Below the pieces are notes generated by a model. The model saw only the letters and a program-made list of their open reading frames with translations, searched no databases and was not told where the DNA came from. From Clostridiales bacterium (GTDB taxonomy: Bacteria > Bacillota > Clostridia > UBA1381), in the NCBI GenBank assembly GCA_029226065.1, contig JAQXXM010000042.1, positions 1 to 54,292 on the forward strand: a stretch of DNA of 54,292 nt, in the 5' to 3' direction. A program made the position numbers and the translations under genes. Positions 42,449 to 50,728 of the stretch are shown here, piece by piece. Positions within the stretch are counted from its first letter, which is position 1. Each line of letters opens with the position of its first letter.

Positions 42449-42814
42449 ATGCAAAGATGTATATTTAATACATGGCTTAACGGTCAGACTTTCGGTTATA
42501 ACTATGGTGATCTTGTCTATATAATAAATAATGCAATATGGCAATACAGAGATATGCATTTAAGACCGGATTTTTGTATTACAAATATAGAAATAGTTCA
42601 AACTATAATTGCTCCCGTAATCGAAGATTATAAATCCGGTAAAATCACTTATTTGGAAGCTGAATTCAACGCCCGAAACAAGATTTATCAATCTGTAAAC
42701 CCAGCATTCCATCCTGATGTGGAATATATGAAAGATCCTCTTTCGAGAGATATTCCGCCGATGGATAATAGCTTATTTATACTTGCAAGAAAGCTGATTT
42801 TATGCTCAAAGTAA
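42449..42814 (+). CDS. hypothetical protein, possibly a gene fragment
   Basis: 121 aa. I do not recognise it. The frame is open and the residues look protein-like (YGDLVYIINNAIWQYRDMHL; a helix with IEIVQTIIAPVIEDYKSGKITYLEAEFNARNKIY). No Shine-Dalgarno precedes the ATG, and an overlapping ATG in another frame (42444) is short. No signal peptide or membrane span. It lies between two terminators with no clear promoter. It may be the remnant of a longer gene. Confidence 0.4.
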   Translation: MQRCIFNTWLNGQTFGYNYGDLVYIINNAIWQYRDMHLRPDFCITNIEIVQTIIAPVIEDYKSGKITYLEAEFNARNKIYQSVNPAFHPDVEYMKDPLSRDIPPMDNSLFILARKLILCSK

Positions 42815-42835: not shown

Positions 42836-42870
42836 ACGCCCGATGTTACTTCAACATCGGGCGTACATTT
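42836..42870. terminator. hairpin terminator
   Basis: A perfect 12-bp GC-rich stem (42836-42847 with 42853-42864) around a 5-nt loop, followed on the plus strand by a T-rich stretch. It separates the orphan ORF from the remnant on the minus strand. Confidence 0.75.
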
Positions 42871-42877
42871 TATTTGG

Positions 42878-43018
42878 TTATTTTTCGACTATAACAGCAT
42901 CATATTTCGGTCTTAAGGAGGATAATCCATCCCACAACACAACCTTAGCATACTCCCGTTGAAAATATGCACGGCTTGCACCGTCTTCTACAACTAACCC
43001 AAGCTTCTGATGAAATTC
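42878..43018 (-). pseudogene. start-less remnant of a coding sequence
   Basis: Downstream of the TetR gene the minus strand holds about 46 codons reading FHQKLGLVVEDGASRAYFQR, then a strand-like YAKVVLWDGLSS and the end YDAVIVEK before TAA at 42878. There is no start codon in frame, and the frame enters the TetR 3' end out of phase. The composition looks like the C-terminus of a real protein. I do not recognise the family. It points to a deletion at this locus. Confidence 0.4.
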
Positions 43019-43598
43019 ACTCCTTTTTATTGTACGAACTTATAATGTTTGGAATAGATTTTTTCAAAACAAACAGGGTGTATTCAATCAATTTATCACG
43101 ATTAATCTTATCTTTATTTTGAAAATAATCAATCAAAACACCTGCTAATGCTTCTGAATAAAAATTTGTTAAGTATGTTTTGAAATCTTTCGATAGGACA
43201 GTAGTATGTTCATTTTCCAAGCCTTCTATTATAGAAAGTACAACACCATAAAAATCAGCATGAAAAAAGCGTTTCATTTCCTCTCTGCCCATTGAATCGT
43301 ATGCACAGTTAAGTATGTGGCTGTTGTTATCCACATAATCAGTAACAAAGAGTATTGCTTCTTCGGGATTGAGCAATAAATCAAAATTTTTAAGAACTTC
43401 GACAGTTTCCTGCTCAAGCGTCCATTTTAAAAGTGCATATATATCTTGAAAATGGTAATAGAAAGTTTTTCGGTTGACACCACAATCAGCAACAATTTCA
43501 CTCACGCTGATTTTAGACAATGGTTTTATATTCATAAATTTTTTTAACGAAGCTGATAAAGTCTTCTTTGTATTCATACTTGTTATTTCGTGTTTCAT
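43017..43598 (-). CDS. TetR/AcrR family transcriptional regulator
   Basis: 193 aa. HTH at about 10-60 with KISVSEIVADCGVNRKTFYYHFQDIYALLKW. The C-terminal part resembles the DhaS-type TetR ligand domain (TetR_C_8-like). I chose ATG at 43598, with AAGGTGAG upstream; a longer frame from 43655 would start at the -35 box. It is divergent from the TSUP/MMPL/GLUG operon and probably represses it. Repeated TTGTCC and GGACAA half-sites lie between them. Confidence 0.92.
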   Translation of the reverse strand: MKHEITSMNTKKTLSASLKKFMNIKPLSKISVSEIVADCGVNRKTFYYHFQDIYALLKWTLEQETVEVLKNFDLLLNPEEAILFVTDYVDNNSHILNCAYDSMGREEMKRFFHADFYGVVLSIIEGLENEHTTVLSKDFKTYLTNFYSEALAGVLIDYFQNKDKINRDKLIEYTLFVLKKSIPNIISSYNKKE

Positions 43599-43619
43599 AA
43601 ATCTCACCTTCTTAAATTT

Positions 43620-43695
43620 ATTATACACTTGTCCAGCAAAAAATTCAACGGACAATTACGGATATTTGACCATCAATTTATATCAATTTGTCCGT
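43620..43695. promoter_or_regulatory. TetR promoter and likely TetR operators
   Basis: On the minus strand TTGAAT (43643-43648), a 17-nt spacer and TATAAT (43620-43625) precede the TetR gene. Half-sites TTGTCC (43629-43634), GGACAA (43650-43655) and TTGTCC (43688-43693) surround it; an 8-bp inverted pair is 43648-43655 with 43688-43695. For the plus-strand operon a -10 candidate TATAAT is at 43748-43753 with no good -35, as in many regulated promoters. Confidence 0.65.
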
Positions 43696-43789
43696 TTTTT
43701 ACACAAAACACATAACATTGACCATTTTATCAACTTACAAAGTCTTATATAATTTAGAGATATAGTATAACGAAAGGATAAACGGGAAT

Positions 43790-44098
43790 ATGAAAAAATA
43801 CGATTATAATGTTGTGCTTGACGCTGAACTCGGACAAAGAAAAGGTACAATGCAAATCCTTGTAAAAGAAAATAAAGTAGAGGGATTTTTGAATTTATTA
43901 AAACATACCGAGCCTATATATGGGAATATTAACATTGATGGCAGTTGTCGATTGCAAGGAAAAATTGTAACGCTGATAAGAGAAATTGCCTATATAGCAA
44001 CAGGACATATTAAAAGCGATGAATTGCTGTTAAATTTTCAAATTGGTACACACAGTTATCTGTTAAAGGGGTTTCCGTTCGAAGGAGAAGAAAAATAG
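43790..44098 (+). CDS. 102-aa protein of unknown function
   Basis: 102 aa, no signal peptide or membrane span. The residues suggest a small beta-rich fold (YDYNVVLDAELGQRKGTMQI, VEGFLNLL, PIYGNINIDGSCRLQGKIV, LLLNFQIGTHSYLLKGF). I do not recognise it. It starts behind GAAAGGA and ends directly before the TSUP gene, so it belongs to that operon. A cytoplasmic accessory or sensor role is open. Confidence 0.75.
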   Translation: MKKYDYNVVLDAELGQRKGTMQILVKENKVEGFLNLLKHTEPIYGNINIDGSCRLQGKIVTLIREIAYIATGHIKSDELLLNFQIGTHSYLLKGFPFEGEEK

Positions 44099-44875
44099 AT
44101 GTATTGGATTATTTATATTATTGCCGGACTTGGAGCAGGAATTGTAACAGGTCTTGCAGGACTTTCTGCTTCTGTTGTTATAACTCCATTGCTTGTAAGC
44201 GTGTGCAGTTGGGATAGCTACAATGCCGTAACGGTTGCTCTTGCCTCTGATGTTCTTGCAAGCTTGCTCACATCATACACATACGCAAAAAACAAAAATA
44301 TTGATGTTAAGCGTGGCTTGCTTGTAGGTATTATTGCCTTGATCGGTACAATTATCGGAAGCTATTCGGGGTATTTGTTTAATAAGGCACAGCCAAACGG
44401 ATTGGGATATATTGCTATGCTTACAACAGTTTCTCTTGGAATAAAGTTTTTGGTTAAGCCGGTAAACGGCGGACTTAACGCTGATGATTTCGAAAAACAA
44501 ACTGTTTTCAAAACTTTTTTAGCAATGTTATGCGGATTGCTGATTGGTTGGGTGTGTGGTTTTACGGGCAGTGGCGGCGGTATTCTTATGCTTACCGTGT
44601 TTACAATGCTTCTTGGTTACAATTTGAAAGTTGCGGTTGGTACAAGCACTTTAATAATGACTTTTGTTGCCTTTGTCGGAACTGTCAGCCACTTATCAAT
44701 GGGTGCAGAAATTCAAGCTCTTCCTATGGCGGTTGTTGTTATAACTTGCCTTATCGGTGCGGTAGTTGCCGCAAAATTCGCAAATAAGTGTGATATAGAG
44801 AAATTAAACCGTGTTATCGGTTTTGTGCTTCTCATACTTGGTATCTTTACTGTTGTAATTAAATTATTATCTTAA
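44099..44875 (+). CDS. TSUP (TauE/SafE) family permease
   Basis: 258 aa with about eight hydrophobic spans. The two Gly-rich family repeats are present: IAGLGAGIVTGLAGLSASVVITPLL and LLIGWVCGFTGSGGGILML. Members export sulfite, sulfoacetate or related anions, or import them. It begins right after the 102-aa gene and lies 50 nt before the MMPL gene. Its substrate here is unknown. Confidence 0.92.
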   Translation: MYWIIYIIAGLGAGIVTGLAGLSASVVITPLLVSVCSWDSYNAVTVALASDVLASLLTSYTYAKNKNIDVKRGLLVGIIALIGTIIGSYSGYLFNKAQPNGLGYIAMLTTVSLGIKFLVKPVNGGLNADDFEKQTVFKTFLAMLCGLLIGWVCGFTGSGGGILMLTVFTMLLGYNLKVAVGTSTLIMTFVAFVGTVSHLSMGAEIQALPMAVVVITCLIGAVVAAKFANKCDIEKLNRVIGFVLLILGIFTVVIKLLS

Positions 44876-44925
44876 ATCAAGAAGATGAAATCTAACTGTT
44901 TTGTGAAAGGAGTAATGTCGAGCTT

Positions 44926-47238
44926 ATGAGTAAATCTTCTGAAAAATTATCACCGTTAGAAAAAATTGCGGCGTTTATCGTTGACCGCCGCAAAGGATTT
45001 TATTTGATATACATATTGCTTATCATATTCAGCTTGTTTTCTACAAATTGGGTTTCTGTTAATAATGAACTTACCGATTATCTGTCCGAAGAAACAGAAA
45101 CACGGCAGGGACTTTCTCTTATGGAAAATGAGTTTGTAACTTATGCAACGGCTGAAATTATGATTGATAACATTTCTTATGCTGACGCAGAGGTTTTATG
45201 CAATGAACTCAAAGCAATAAACGGAATTAAGGACATAGCCTTTGACAGTACGGATAATCATTATGTAAATGCTTCTGCTTTGTTTTCAGTAACCTTTGAG
45301 GGAACAAGCAGCGATGATATAACCGTAACTGCTTTTAACGAGATAGAAAACAGGCTTGATGATTACGATACATATATTTCCGCTTCTATTGGTGACGCTG
45401 ATTCAAAAAGAATGGCAAACGAAATGAATATGGTTATGCTTATAGCTTGTGTCATTATTTTGGCAGTGCTTCTTATATCTTCTCATACATATATGGAAAT
45501 TCCCGTACTTGTCATAACTTTTGGCGTAGCGGCAATTTTGAATAAAGGCACAAATTTTATGCTTGGCACAATTTCCTTTATTTCAAATTCGATAGCTGTT
45601 GTCTTGCAGCTCGCTCTTGCAATAGATTATGCAATTATTCTATGTCACAGATATACGGAAGAAAGAGAAAGCAAAGAGCCAAGAGAAGCAGTTATCACGG
45701 CACTTTGTAAAGCAATCCCCGAAATTTCCGGCAGTTGCCTTACAACTCTTTCGGGACTTGCCGCAATGGGATTTATGCAATTCAAGATAGGTTTTGATAT
45801 GAGTATTGTACTTATCAAGGCAATTATCATTAGTATTTTATCTGTTTTTACACTTATGCCCGGACTTTTAATGTCATTTTCAAAGCTGATAGATAAAACA
45901 CATCACAAAAATTTCGTGCCGCAAATTACCGCTTGGAGTAACGGAGTTATAAAAGCAAGATTTGTTACGCCTTGTATTTTTGCCGTTTTGATTGTTATTT
46001 GCTTTTTCCTGTCAAATAACTGTCCGTATGCTTACAGCGATACTGACCTTGATACAATTAAAAAAAATGAAACACAAATTGCACGGGAAATGATAAATGA
46101 CACATTCAGCCGCACTAATGTACTTGCCGTTATTGTACCATCAGGGGATTATGAAAAAGAACAGGCATTAAAATCTAAACTTGAAAAATACAGTCAGGTT
46201 GACAGTGTTACGGGGCTTGCTTCTGTAGAAGCAATCGACGGATATGCGGTCGGCGACAAGCTATCGCCTCGTGAATTTTCGGAACTTACGGATATGGATA
46301 TCGAGGTAGTGCGGCTTTTATATTCTTCTTATGCCGCAAAGGGTGAAAATTACGGCAAAATTGTTGGTGGCATAGATAACTATAAAATCGCACTTTTAGA
46401 TATGTTTGACTTTGTTTTTGAAATGATTGATGAGGGATATGTTTCACTTGATGATGAAATGCAAAAGGATTTAGACGAACTACATAATCAGCTTACAGAC
46501 GGAAAGAAACAGCTTGGTAGTGAAAACTACTCTCGTTTGGTTATGAATTTGAATATACCCGAAGAAGGCGAGGAAACATTTGAGTTTTTAAGCACTGTCA
46601 GAGAAACGGCAAAGCGTTTTTACGGAGATGATGTTATACTCGTTGGAAATGCAACAAGCAATTATGATTTATCAGTCGCTTTCGTCAGAGATAATTTGAT
46701 AATTACAATACTTTCGATTGTTTTTGTGCTGATTGTGTTGTTTTTTACATTTCAATCGGCGGGCATACCGCTTATTCTCATTTTGGTTATTCAAGGCAGT
46801 ATTTGGCTTAATTTTTCATTCCCTACCTTGCAGGATAAGCCGATATTTTTTATGAGTTATCTTGTTGTAAGCTCAATTCAGATGGGTGCAAACATTGACT
46901 ATGCAATCGTAATTACAAACAGATACACGGAATTACGCAGAGAAATGAATAAATTTGAAGCTATAAAGCAATCTCTAGACTTGGCTTTTCCGACAATATT
47001 TACATCGGGAACAATACTTGCTTGTGCAGGGTTTGCCATAGGACTTTTTTCCTCAAACCCTGTAATTTCTTCTGTCGGCTCGGCACTTGGCAGAGGAACT
47101 GTCATTTCAATTATTTTGGTTATGGGAATATTACCGCAGTTATTAGTGCTTGGTGATTTTATCATTGAAAAAACATCATTTAGTTTGAAAGACATAAAAG
47201 AGCATATTAAGATTGGAGGCGGAACAGATGAAGAATAG
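44926..47238 (+). CDS. MMPL/RND family exporter
   Basis: 770 aa with twelve predicted spans and two large external loops (about 45-165 and 375-570). The first span region has KGFYLIYILLIIFSLFS. Seen family traits are ALAIDYAIILCHRYTEERE and the paired repeat GANIDYAIVITNRYTELR, each with the Asp used for proton relay, and the Gly-rich spans before the end. MMPL proteins export lipids, glycolipids or peptides across the membrane. The gene overlaps the following GLUG gene by 11 nt, a sign of tight coupling. Confidence 0.92.
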   Translation: MSKSSEKLSPLEKIAAFIVDRRKGFYLIYILLIIFSLFSTNWVSVNNELTDYLSEETETRQGLSLMENEFVTYATAEIMIDNISYADAEVLCNELKAINGIKDIAFDSTDNHYVNASALFSVTFEGTSSDDITVTAFNEIENRLDDYDTYISASIGDADSKRMANEMNMVMLIACVIILAVLLISSHTYMEIPVLVITFGVAAILNKGTNFMLGTISFISNSIAVVLQLALAIDYAIILCHRYTEERESKEPREAVITALCKAIPEISGSCLTTLSGLAAMGFMQFKIGFDMSIVLIKAIIISILSVFTLMPGLLMSFSKLIDKTHHKNFVPQITAWSNGVIKARFVTPCIFAVLIVICFFLSNNCPYAYSDTDLDTIKKNETQIAREMINDTFSRTNVLAVIVPSGDYEKEQALKSKLEKYSQVDSVTGLASVEAIDGYAVGDKLSPREFSELTDMDIEVVRLLYSSYAAKGENYGKIVGGIDNYKIALLDMFDFVFEMIDEGYVSLDDEMQKDLDELHNQLTDGKKQLGSENYSRLVMNLNIPEEGEETFEFLSTVRETAKRFYGDDVILVGNATSNYDLSVAFVRDNLIITILSIVFVLIVLFFTFQSAGIPLILILVIQGSIWLNFSFPTLQDKPIFFMSYLVVSSIQMGANIDYAIVITNRYTELRREMNKFEAIKQSLDLAFPTIFTSGTILACAGFAIGLFSSNPVISSVGSALGRGTVISIILVMGILPQLLVLGDFIIEKTSFSLKDIKEHIKIGGGTDEE

Positions 47239-50200
47239 AATAATTGCAAGCATACTTGTTGTAGCAATGGTTTTATATATGTTGCTTACAATAATTCCGC
47301 CTGTATTAGCTGCAGGAAATACAATAGACATAGACAGCAAAGATGATTTTGTCAAGTTTTCCGAAAAGTGTACCCTTGATACTTGGTCGCAAGGAAAAAC
47401 GGTCAATTTGAATTGTGATATACACTTTTCAAACAGCGATTTTTCGCCTATCCCTACATTTGGCGGAACTTTTAACGGAAACGGCTACACAATATCGGGG
47501 ATATCCTTTGACGATAAAGGCTCATATCAAGGCGTATTTCGTTATGTTCAGCAAGACGGAAAAATATCAAATCTCAATGTAAAAGGCACTTTTATTCCGG
47601 GCGGCTCGAAAAGTTTTATAGGCGGTATTGTCGGAGAAAATTCGGGAACTCTTGAAAACTGCACCTTTAGCGGCAGTGTAAAAGGTGAAAATGTTATCGG
47701 CGGCATTGTCGGCAATAATACCGAGTACGGTCAAATTATATCTTGTATTTCTTATGGAAACATCATCGGAGAAAATTCTACGGGCGGTGTTACAGGAAAA
47801 AACAGCGGATTTATTCAGAATTGCACAAATAATGCAACAGTAAATACAGTATATGAAGAAAAGAAAAGCGACATTACCAATATAGATACAGATGCAGGAG
47901 CAATTGTTGAAAATTATAGAACAAGTGAGGAAGAAACCGAAGAGAAAAGCGTTTTGGGACATAGCAATACAGGCGGAATAGTCGGTTATTCTTCAGGAAT
48001 TGTGCAAGGCTGCATTAACAATGCTGCTGTTGGTTATCAGCACATAGGTTACAATGTTGGCGGTATCGCAGGCAGACAATCGGGATATATGTTAGGCTGT
48101 AAAAATAACGGCTTTATTCAAGGAAGAAAAGATGTCGGCGGTATTGTAGGACAGACAGAGCCTTATATACTGCTCAACACTTCCGAAAGCACCTTGCAGG
48201 ATTTACGGAGTGAACTAAATAATCTCAACACAATGGTAAATAAATTCATAACAGATACCGACAATTTAGGTGATGATACGGAAAAGCATTTAAACGGCAT
48301 TGCAGAACACGCAAAAAATGCACAGGATAATGCTGAAACCTTACTTAATCAAGGGACAGATTTTATAGATGATAATTTAAGCGAAATAAATGCACAATCC
48401 GCAATTTTATCTAATACACTTGATAAACTGATACCTGTTTTTGAAAGTTTGGAAAGCGGCGGCGTTGATATGGTTGACGCACTTGATAAATCGCGGGAAG
48501 CACTTGACGATATAAAAATATATGTTCCAAATTTGAATGACGAAATTGACGACATCAGCTTCGCATTATCAGAAATCTCACGTGCAGAAAGAAGCATAAA
48601 AAAAGCTGTTCAAAGAGCAAACAGAGCAAGTAACGATTTAGATGAAGCTATTGAATTTAATAACATTCAAAAAGTAAAAACTTCAATATCGGAGCTTTCT
48701 TCTGCAATTAAAGGTATAATAACAGCAAAACAAACGATTAAAACATCTTTGGAAACAATAGAAACCGTATTAAAAACAAAGCCCGAAAATTTTGAAAGCA
48801 TTGTTATCAATGCAAAAGAAATTGCAGAAAACTTAAAAACTATCAAAGAAAATGTAGATACTACAATTTCATCATTAAAAACAATCGAACAAAGTCTTGA
48901 TACTATAACCTTGAATGCTGAAATAGATTTTTCGGAGTTTAAGTCTGCTGCACAAAATATGGAATCGGCAATCGGATATATAGGTGACGCTATGTATTAC
49001 ATAACAGACGGACTTAAAGATTTGGGAACAGCAATAGAAGATTTATCAGAGGAGATTTATGATTACGCCGATGATGTCAGCGATGAATTAAATAATGCAA
49101 AAAAAGATTTAGCTGACGCAATTAGTTCATTATCCTATGCAACAGACGATATTAAAACAGCCATCGGAGGTATTAAAAATATTATCGCAGATTTATCAAA
49201 AGAAAAACCACTTGAATTTGTAAAATTGGGTGATGACTTCAAAATTGCAAGTGAGAATTTATTTGACTCTCTTTCGGGAATATCGAGCGAAATTGACGGT
49301 CTAAAAGACACAGCTTCAAACGGAAAAAACAAAATCACAGGAGATATAACCTCTATAAGCAATCAGTTTAATTTGGTAATGAATTTACTGATAGGAGAAT
49401 TAGAAGAATTAACAAATGGAAACAACAGCCTTGCAGATGTATTCCTTGATGTTTCGGACGAGGATATAGAAAATACAAAGCAGGGGAAAATTGATAATTG
49501 TCAAAATTTTGGAACGGTTGAAGCTGACAGAAACACAGGCGGTATCGCAGGAGCTATGGCAATAGAATATTCCAAGGATCCCGAAGATGATATAGAAAAG
49601 CCTGATACACTTAATTTCACATATCGGACAAAAGCAATTTTATACGCTTGTATAAATGACGGTAAGGTAACCGGAAAAAAGGATTGCACGGGCGGCGTAG
49701 TCGGTCTTTCGGAAATAGGAACAGTTTATGGGTGTGAAAATTACGGAAACATCGAAAGTACAAGTGGCAACTATGTAGGCGGAATAGCAGGAAAGAGCGA
49801 ATCTGCTATCCGTAAAAGCTATGCAAAATCCAAACTGACAGGAAAAAGATACATAGGAGGCATTGCAGGGAAAGCAGATATAATAACGGCTTGCTACACA
49901 ATAGTAAATGTAAGCGGTGAAGAAAATACAGGAGCAATTTGCGGAGATACAGAAAGCAAAGAAAAACTATATCAGAACTTTTTTGTTAATAACAGCCTTG
50001 GCGGTATTGACAGTATAAGCTACACAGAAAAAGCAGAGCCTATCAGCTTTGAGGAATTAAAGAATATAAGTGGTATTCCTTTGAGATTTATCAGCTTTAC
50101 TGTAATCTTTATTGCAGATGATAAAATCATTCAAACCCAAGAGATAAAATTCGGTGATGAAACGGCAAGAATTAAATATCCCGAAATCCCCAAAAAAGAT

Positions 50201-50728
50201 GGACATTTTGGTAATTGGCAGCAGATAGAAGCCGAAACTATAACAGAAAACATTGAAATCATTTGCGAATATCAGCCTTATATTACCGTTTTGTCAAGCG
50301 TACAAAAAAACGAAAATGGTAAATTGGCTCTTGCTTTAGCAGAGGGCAAATTTACCGATAAGGCTGAATTAAATATAATGGACAGCAATCAAAAACCACC
50401 TGCAAGTGCAGACGGAAATATAAAGGTCTATGATATATCACTTTCAAATACTGATATTAAGGAAAACGATACTGTAACTCTCCGTATTCTGAATGAAAAC
50501 AAAGACAAGGTTACGGCTTGGATATTAAAAGGTGATAAATGGGAAAAGGTTGAAACTACCCACAAAGGTAAATATGTATTACTTCAAGCAAACGGCACAC
50601 AGAATACAATTTGCTTAAAATACGTAGAAAAAAATTTCAGCTTTATTTGGATTGGTTTAATAACGGTAATCGTTCTTTTTTCTGCGTTTCTGCTGTTCAA
50701 GCAAAAATATAGAAAAGCAAAAAAATGA
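47228..50728 (+). CDS. large secreted, membrane-anchored GLUG/coiled-coil protein
   Basis: About 1166 aa. A signal peptide (to about 28) is followed by a first block of GLUG-like repeats (about 80-310; GGIVGENSGTLENCTFSGS, GGIAGRQSGYMLGC). A mainly coiled-coil stretch of about 400 residues follows (about 320-745; heptads in DLGTAIEDLSEEIYDYADDV). A second GLUG block (about 755-920), an InlB-like beta repeat (near 950-1010), a Lys/Glu-rich domain and a C-terminal span (WIGLITVIVLFSAFLLF) with a basic tip end it. I chose ATG at 47228, with GGAGG 8 nt upstream inside MMPL; TTG 47213 is less likely. It is last in the operon. The long coil could bridge membrane and surface. Confidence 0.85.
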   Translation: MKNRIIASILVVAMVLYMLLTIIPPVLAAGNTIDIDSKDDFVKFSEKCTLDTWSQGKTVNLNCDIHFSNSDFSPIPTFGGTFNGNGYTISGISFDDKGSYQGVFRYVQQDGKISNLNVKGTFIPGGSKSFIGGIVGENSGTLENCTFSGSVKGENVIGGIVGNNTEYGQIISCISYGNIIGENSTGGVTGKNSGFIQNCTNNATVNTVYEEKKSDITNIDTDAGAIVENYRTSEEETEEKSVLGHSNTGGIVGYSSGIVQGCINNAAVGYQHIGYNVGGIAGRQSGYMLGCKNNGFIQGRKDVGGIVGQTEPYILLNTSESTLQDLRSELNNLNTMVNKFITDTDNLGDDTEKHLNGIAEHAKNAQDNAETLLNQGTDFIDDNLSEINAQSAILSNTLDKLIPVFESLESGGVDMVDALDKSREALDDIKIYVPNLNDEIDDISFALSEISRAERSIKKAVQRANRASNDLDEAIEFNNIQKVKTSISELSSAIKGIITAKQTIKTSLETIETVLKTKPENFESIVINAKEIAENLKTIKENVDTTISSLKTIEQSLDTITLNAEIDFSEFKSAAQNMESAIGYIGDAMYYITDGLKDLGTAIEDLSEEIYDYADDVSDELNNAKKDLADAISSLSYATDDIKTAIGGIKNIIADLSKEKPLEFVKLGDDFKIASENLFDSLSGISSEIDGLKDTASNGKNKITGDITSISNQFNLVMNLLIGELEELTNGNNSLADVFLDVSDEDIENTKQGKIDNCQNFGTVEADRNTGGIAGAMAIEYSKDPEDDIEKPDTLNFTYRTKAILYACINDGKVTGKKDCTGGVVGLSEIGTVYGCENYGNIESTSGNYVGGIAGKSESAIRKSYAKSKLTGKRYIGGIAGKADIITACYTIVNVSGEENTGAICGDTESKEKLYQNFFVNNSLGGIDSISYTEKAEPISFEELKNISGIPLRFISFTVIFIADDKIIQTQEIKFGDETARIKYPEIPKKDGHFGNWQQIEAETITENIEIICEYQPYITVLSSVQKNENGKLALALAEGKFTDKAELNIMDSNQKPPASADGNIKVYDISLSNTDIKENDTVTLRILNENKDKVTAWILKGDKWEKVETTHKGKYVLLQANGTQNTICLKYVEKNFSFIWIGLITVIVLFSAFLLFKQKYRKAKK

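Follow-up and report, generated by a model that had tools for sequence, protein, structure and literature searches.

We analysed a 54,292-nucleotide stretch of a Clostridiales bacterium genome (positions 1 to 54,292 of contig JAQXXM010000042.1, assembly GCA_029226065.1), hereafter the window, in which the gene for an MMPL transporter (44926..47238, + strand, 770 residues) is followed by the gene for a large secreted protein with GLUG repeats and a coiled coil (47228..50728, + strand, 1166 residues). Pumps of the MMPL family are exporters of lipids, siderophores, and drugs, and the host belongs to a class that is mostly single-membraned. Our reading, to which we assign a probability of roughly 0.68, is that the two proteins form an obligate two-subunit exporter of the RND type, controlled by a TetR-family repressor, with the external coiled coil supplied in trans by the GLUG protein. 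It was built from gene content, adjacency, co-occurrence, fusion, topology signals, and the covariation of a transporter module with the type of partner. A fixed MMPL-GLUG partnership had already been suggested by the sequence-only reading of this DNA, and adjacency, co-occurrence, and natural fusions now support it strongly.

Linkage and fusion of the MMPL and GLUG genes

Relatives of the MMPL were gathered from close genomes, a species-level contig collection, and a class-wide sample, and their surrounding genes were read. The MMPL was paired with a GLUG/coiled-coil protein in 68 loci, not all of them independent, as some come from close relatives; the partner is the next gene on the same strand in 65 and is fused to the MMPL in three. 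Counted from the first possible start codon, 64 of the 65 separate pairs overlap or sit within 30 nucleotides of each other. Locus L041 is explained by contig ends, and in L056 the MMPL frame is broken, with a GLUG fragment directly after it. Among the genomes of the order that are at least 90% complete (n = 37), 19 hold both genes, 18 hold neither, and none holds one alone, a distribution that random assortment would produce with a chance of about 6e-11, ignoring phylogeny. The co-occurrence in other genomes, whose absence would by the sequence-only reading have refuted its idea, is thus borne out. Four true members of the GLUG partner family were found in a sample of 300 genomes from the phylum, all with an MMPL next door; another match in this sample (G304, locus L121) was rejected as a member, being a generic GLUG surface protein without an MMPL. 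The GLUG-partnered MMPLs form one clade (Shimodaira-Hasegawa-like approximate likelihood ratio test, SH-aLRT, 100), and the adjacency of the two genes persists while the neighbouring TetR gene, a small gene named X102, a TSUP permease gene, and the flanks change. The same TetR-MMPL-partner order stands on a 37.7-kilobase plasmid (NZ_OY725729.1) of a Monoglobus pectinilyticus isolate (L201), so cultured material may be available; NCBI names the MMPL and the TetR of this plasmid and labels the partner 'hypothetical protein'. In L043:3697-7205 of genome G023 (same contig as L031), the GLUG gene lies in two overlapping frames, a frameshift that is either real or an assembly error.

Natural fusions occur in one genus, where three genomes (G582, G451, and G562) encode both proteins in a single open frame of 2003, 1912, and 1921 residues, respectively. 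At the joint, the MMPL tail is dropped and a segment resembling a signal peptide, with an A-x-A-type site at its end (e.g. VRAE), is retained, so the GLUG part would still lie outside and the MMPL C-terminus inside, and the predicted topology of the fused proteins would agree with that of the separate MMPL and GLUG proteins. In the tree, the fusions are one clade nested among the two-gene forms. These data bear directly on the idea that two independently acting envelope genes merely hitch-hike in an operon under a shared TetR, which we consider extremely improbable. A TetR gene does adjoin the pair in 48 of the 68 loci (34 divergent upstream, 5 upstream on the same strand, and 9 downstream), and co-regulated envelope genes often travel together, but the persistence of the pair through changing TetR, X102, TSUP, and flanks, the fusions, and the 19/18/0 co-occurrence already contradict this idea to a large extent.

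The GLUG/coiled-coil partner

The partner matches the Glug repeats (PF07581) with 32.4 bits against a cut-off of 20.5 and has many invariant glycine motifs. Its structural model comprises a confident beta-solenoid at residues 32-317, a helical/coiled-coil part at 320-730 whose confidence is low to middling, a second solenoid half at 736-907, beta domains at 936-1133, a transmembrane (TM) span at 1139-1165, and a tail rich in lysine and arginine. The signal peptide, the long coiled coil (about 320-730 of 1166 residues), and the C-terminal span that had been described from the letters alone are therefore present, and the signal segment and the C-terminal span with its basic tail recur in nearly all homologues. 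In the 28 members for which both borders were found, the stretch between the solenoid halves is mostly 424-455 or 483-532 residues long. A Foldseek search with the whole model gave no match at E <= 0.001, with generic long helices dominating and weak ZU5-like and beta-solenoid matches among the rest. No HlyD/AcrA-type adaptor was matched in Pfam or NCBIfam or appeared among the best Foldseek matches.

An alternative that we judge unlikely makes the GLUG protein an adhesin of the surface or a protein of the wall, with the MMPL giving indirect help to its export or maturation, such as flipping a lipid or polymer required at the surface, and with no part for the coil in transport. In favour of this view, other large surface proteins of these genomes commonly contain beta-solenoids with GLUG motifs, and the partner, too, shows a signal segment and domains of surface type. 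However, a partner with its own Sec signal has no need of a dedicated exporter, generic GLUG adhesins are unlinked to MMPL (L121), and the single-chain fusion and strict co-inheritance fit a shared complex better. The same architecture could also be read as that of an extracytoplasmic sensor or lid, gating the MMPL upon envelope stress or ligand binding instead of serving as conduit or stalk, since sensor-like proteins combine a single C-terminal span with a long helical part and the link to TetR makes the pair probably stress-inducible. We regard this as very unlikely: the C-terminal tail is short, basic, and without a signalling domain, and as a rule a coil of about 440 residues is retained, more than a lid would need.

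The transporter and its loop-2 module

The MMPL passes the Pfam MMPL cut-off (PF03176, 146.9 bits against 20.5) with a match in both halves, and follows the two-half RND plan with the aspartate-tyrosine (DY) pairs D234-Y235 in TM4 and D658-Y659 in TM10, which are invariant in 38 sequences. Its score against the HAE3 family (TIGR00921) is 134.8 bits, below the cut-off of 351.9. By profile, MmpL4 (E 1.7e-17) and MmpL5 are the closest solved structures in the PDB, with MmpL3 behind them. The TM7-TM8 loop contains no inserted coiled coil, external loop 2 spanning only about residues 370-580. Within this loop, a helical module of approximately 100 residues (about 428-530; 46207..46515, + strand) is present in 65 of 65 GLUG-type MMPLs, fused ones included (112-158 bits), and absent from 21 of 21 MMPLs with another partner; as 38 of the positives went into its profile, only the remaining positives and the negatives provide an independent test.

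A second partner family and MMPLs without a partner

MMPLs at 24-39% identity (local BLAST) are directly followed by another secreted protein, whose base is unrelated to GLUG, in loci spread across Clostridia (L074-L080, L176-L183, L185-L187, and L189-L191). Most of those scanned carry xxxLxxG heptads. The model of this second partner (mean predicted local distance difference test score, pLDDT, 81) has a beta domain at residues 30-214 and an inserted antiparallel helical hairpin (223-324 and 345-452), followed by a closing strand and a C-terminal amphipathic helix. Identification as MmpS or as an adaptor was rejected, as Foldseek returned a mu-homology-like beta-sandwich. Judged from this model, the unrelated partner of the distant MMPLs appears to follow the same logic as the GLUG protein, with a helical hairpin inserted into a beta base.

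Two loci, L156 (5764-9972, + strand) and L157 (5129-9172, - strand), encode MMPLs of 1402 and 1347 residues with no partner gene after them. We rejected these as cis coiled-coil versions, as their loop-2 inserts of 620-740 residues consist of tandem helical repeats of about 75 residues, distantly like the loop-2 module. L184 encodes an 849-residue MMPL, also without a partner. Apart from these three exceptions, the two partner families give nearly every examined MMPL of the class an extracytoplasmic partner with beta and helical parts.

Gene layout and regulation

All five open reading frames of the block that the sequence-only reading had delimited, from the TetR gene to the GLUG gene, were recovered at the same coordinates and with the same domain assignments. 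The Pfam cut-offs are passed by TetR_N and TetR_C_8 for the regulator (43017..43598, - strand; distantly DhaS-like), TauE (PF01925) for the TSUP permease (44099..44875, + strand), MMPL, and Glug; X102 (43790..44098, + strand) is a small protein without a signal peptide and matched no family in Pfam. The spacings were also as described: no nucleotide lies between the end of X102 at 44098 and the start of TSUP at 44099, 50 nucleotides separate the end of TSUP at 44875 from the start of the MMPL at 44926, and the end of the MMPL gene at 47238 overlaps the GLUG ATG at 47228 by 11 nucleotides. This ATG is the best start for the GLUG gene, a longer TTG start at 47213 being less likely. Upstream, the block is set off from the preceding gene by a strong 12-base-pair terminator at 42836-42864, which ends a 121-residue open reading frame without family (42449-42814, + strand).

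What did not hold is the four-gene operon as a unit, because most loci lack X102 and most lack TSUP; the unit is therefore two genes, MMPL and GLUG. X102 also adjoins the MMPL in L038, L042, L044, L117, L159, and L160, that is, in a few families only, with weak X102-like matches elsewhere. TSUP is intact in the window and has a divergent copy beyond the TetR gene in L053 and L153. Found in so few loci, both were rejected as fixed partners. Between X102 and the MMPL of L044 (9165-10161), the TSUP gene is broken by several stops and frameshifts, and it thus seems dispensable to the unit.

The open frame of the regulator reaches 43655, but its start is probably the ATG at 43598, behind AAGGTGAGATTT, rather than the TTG at 43655, as judged from the relative in L044 and the Shine-Dalgarno-like AAGGTGAGA. 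With this start, the repeated TTGTCC sites fall between two divergent genes, in a region (43599..43789) that holds candidate TetR operators, namely four TTG(A/T)CC sites and one inverted GGACAA, as assessed by alignment with L042 and L044 and by shuffles. The intergenic stretch of 194 base pairs has three copies of TTGTCC/GGACAA, whereas 0.06 would be expected from the window. The order and orientation of the four TTG(A/T)CC sites are kept in L042 and L044, two relatives sharing the same TetR, one of the four being degenerate in L044. The repeated half-sites reported earlier are mainly direct repeats, with a sole inverted copy that is conserved in two of the three loci, so reading them as inverted half-sites is only partly right. 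The TetR may bind these sites. Its control of the MMPL-GLUG pair is plausible, and such control would be usual though variable across loci, some of the 20 loci without an adjacent TetR gene stopping at contig borders. In one family (L162, L165, and L166), a gene for a NAGPA/Cu-amine-oxidase-N ('stalk domain') protein stands behind the TetR gene, as it does on the Monoglobus plasmid.

Proposed mechanism and its significance

In the two-subunit exporter that we favour, the MMPL would act as the membrane pump, driven by protons. The GLUG protein would be secreted by Sec and stay anchored in the membrane through its C-terminal span, with a long helical stalk emerging between the two halves of its beta-solenoid base. 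This base would most likely dock on the external domain of the MMPL, the loop-2 helical module being a candidate site. By analogy with MmpL4/5, whose loop coil acts in cis, the stalk might supply oligomerisation, an extended exit path, or both in trans, and the coiled coil may bridge the wall. Expression of the exporter would be induced through the TetR repressor. The substrate is probably hydrophobic or amphiphilic, if characterised MMPL pumps are a guide.

Several points weigh against this proposal. We infer the physical contact between the MMPL and the GLUG protein, and the covariation of module and partner is a single event on the tree. The low model confidence of the GLUG helical part leaves a hairpin, a bundle, and an oligomer indistinguishable, and only about 165 residues separate the beta halves of L040, so that a long coil is no strict requirement. 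In the annotated flanks, the neighbouring genes give no consistent clue to the substrate; deducing it from them was rejected, as the flanks are lineage-dependent (tRNA synthetase, subtilase, NAGPA/Cu-amine-oxidase-N proteins, rhamnosidase, and others).

Because the MMPL is co-inherited with a coiled-coil protein and, in one lineage, fused to it, our data suggest that gut-type Clostridia, which are single-membraned, add a long external accessory part to their MMPL pumps. More tentatively, the clostridial MMPLs could be a distinct multi-subunit RND class, in which a separate wall-spanning coiled-coil conduit or stalk passes through the thick wall and corresponds to the adaptor/channel assemblies for which a second membrane is thought necessary. 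The same solution would then have been reached by two partner families unrelated to each other, and possibly by the tandem loop repeats of the partnerless MMPLs. We regard this broader idea as less likely than not. The pair raises the question of why bacteria without an outer membrane would need a long external extension, and it provides a function hypothesis for a large family whose present annotation does not go beyond 'hypothetical protein'. The role of the MmpL4/5 coiled coil is itself an open question, and having the coil as a separate gene, naturally fused in one genus, would let coil and pump be deleted, swapped, and mixed.

Comparison with known systems

The sequence-only reading knew of no described system of this form, and we found no paper pairing GLUG with MMPL in the open library searched; searches on MMPL with heptad repeats, MMPL with YhgE, and Gram-positive MmpL adaptors gave no description of it either. 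The closest solved relatives are the mycobacterial siderophore/bedaquiline RND exporters MmpL4 and MmpL5 with MmpS4 and MmpS5. In the MmpL5 trimer, the coiled coil forms a needle of 125 Å (PMC12346298), the loop coiled coil of MmpL4/5 extends far from the membrane and is essential for export (PMC12803245), and MmpS stabilises the assembly (PMC12346298; PMC12803245). The MMPL of the window shares with them the MMPL fold family, the proton-coupling DY pairs (described in PMC12803245), the best PDB matches, an operon with an extracytoplasmic beta-domain partner, and a coiled coil beyond the membrane. Unlike theirs, its coiled coil is not in its own loop but in a separate (or C-terminally fused) 1166-residue partner, and the operon partner is the GLUG protein, whereas MmpS is a small TM and beta protein. 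The MMPL of the window thus belongs to the MMPL/RND family and is neither of the MmpL4/5 coiled-coil type, having no loop coil and no MmpS, nor a member of the adaptor families.

The adaptors AcrA, MacA, HlyD, and EmrA offer an analogy, as they may likewise be seen as a beta base with an inserted helical hairpin beside a pump, but no sequence-family match links them to the GLUG protein, whose base is a beta-solenoid and whose anchor is C-terminal; no outer-membrane channel gene was seen in the annotated flanks. The xxxLxxG heptad-repeat proteins (TIGR03057) are similar in that a secreted partner with beta and helical parts stands directly behind an MMPL in other Clostridia, and differ in their mu-homology-like beta-sandwich base and in a C-terminal amphipathic helix that replaces the TM span; their MMPLs lack the loop-2 module. 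Finally, FarE/FarR of Staphylococcus aureus resembles our system as a Gram-positive MMPL pump divergent from a TetR gene, the arrangement of the window and of 34 of the 68 related loci. In contrast to the system of the window, we know of no GLUG/coiled-coil partner described for it. FarE, a TetR-controlled MMPL for fatty-acid efflux that confers resistance to unsaturated fatty acids, is the nearest functional precedent for the exporter proposed here (PMC10019231).

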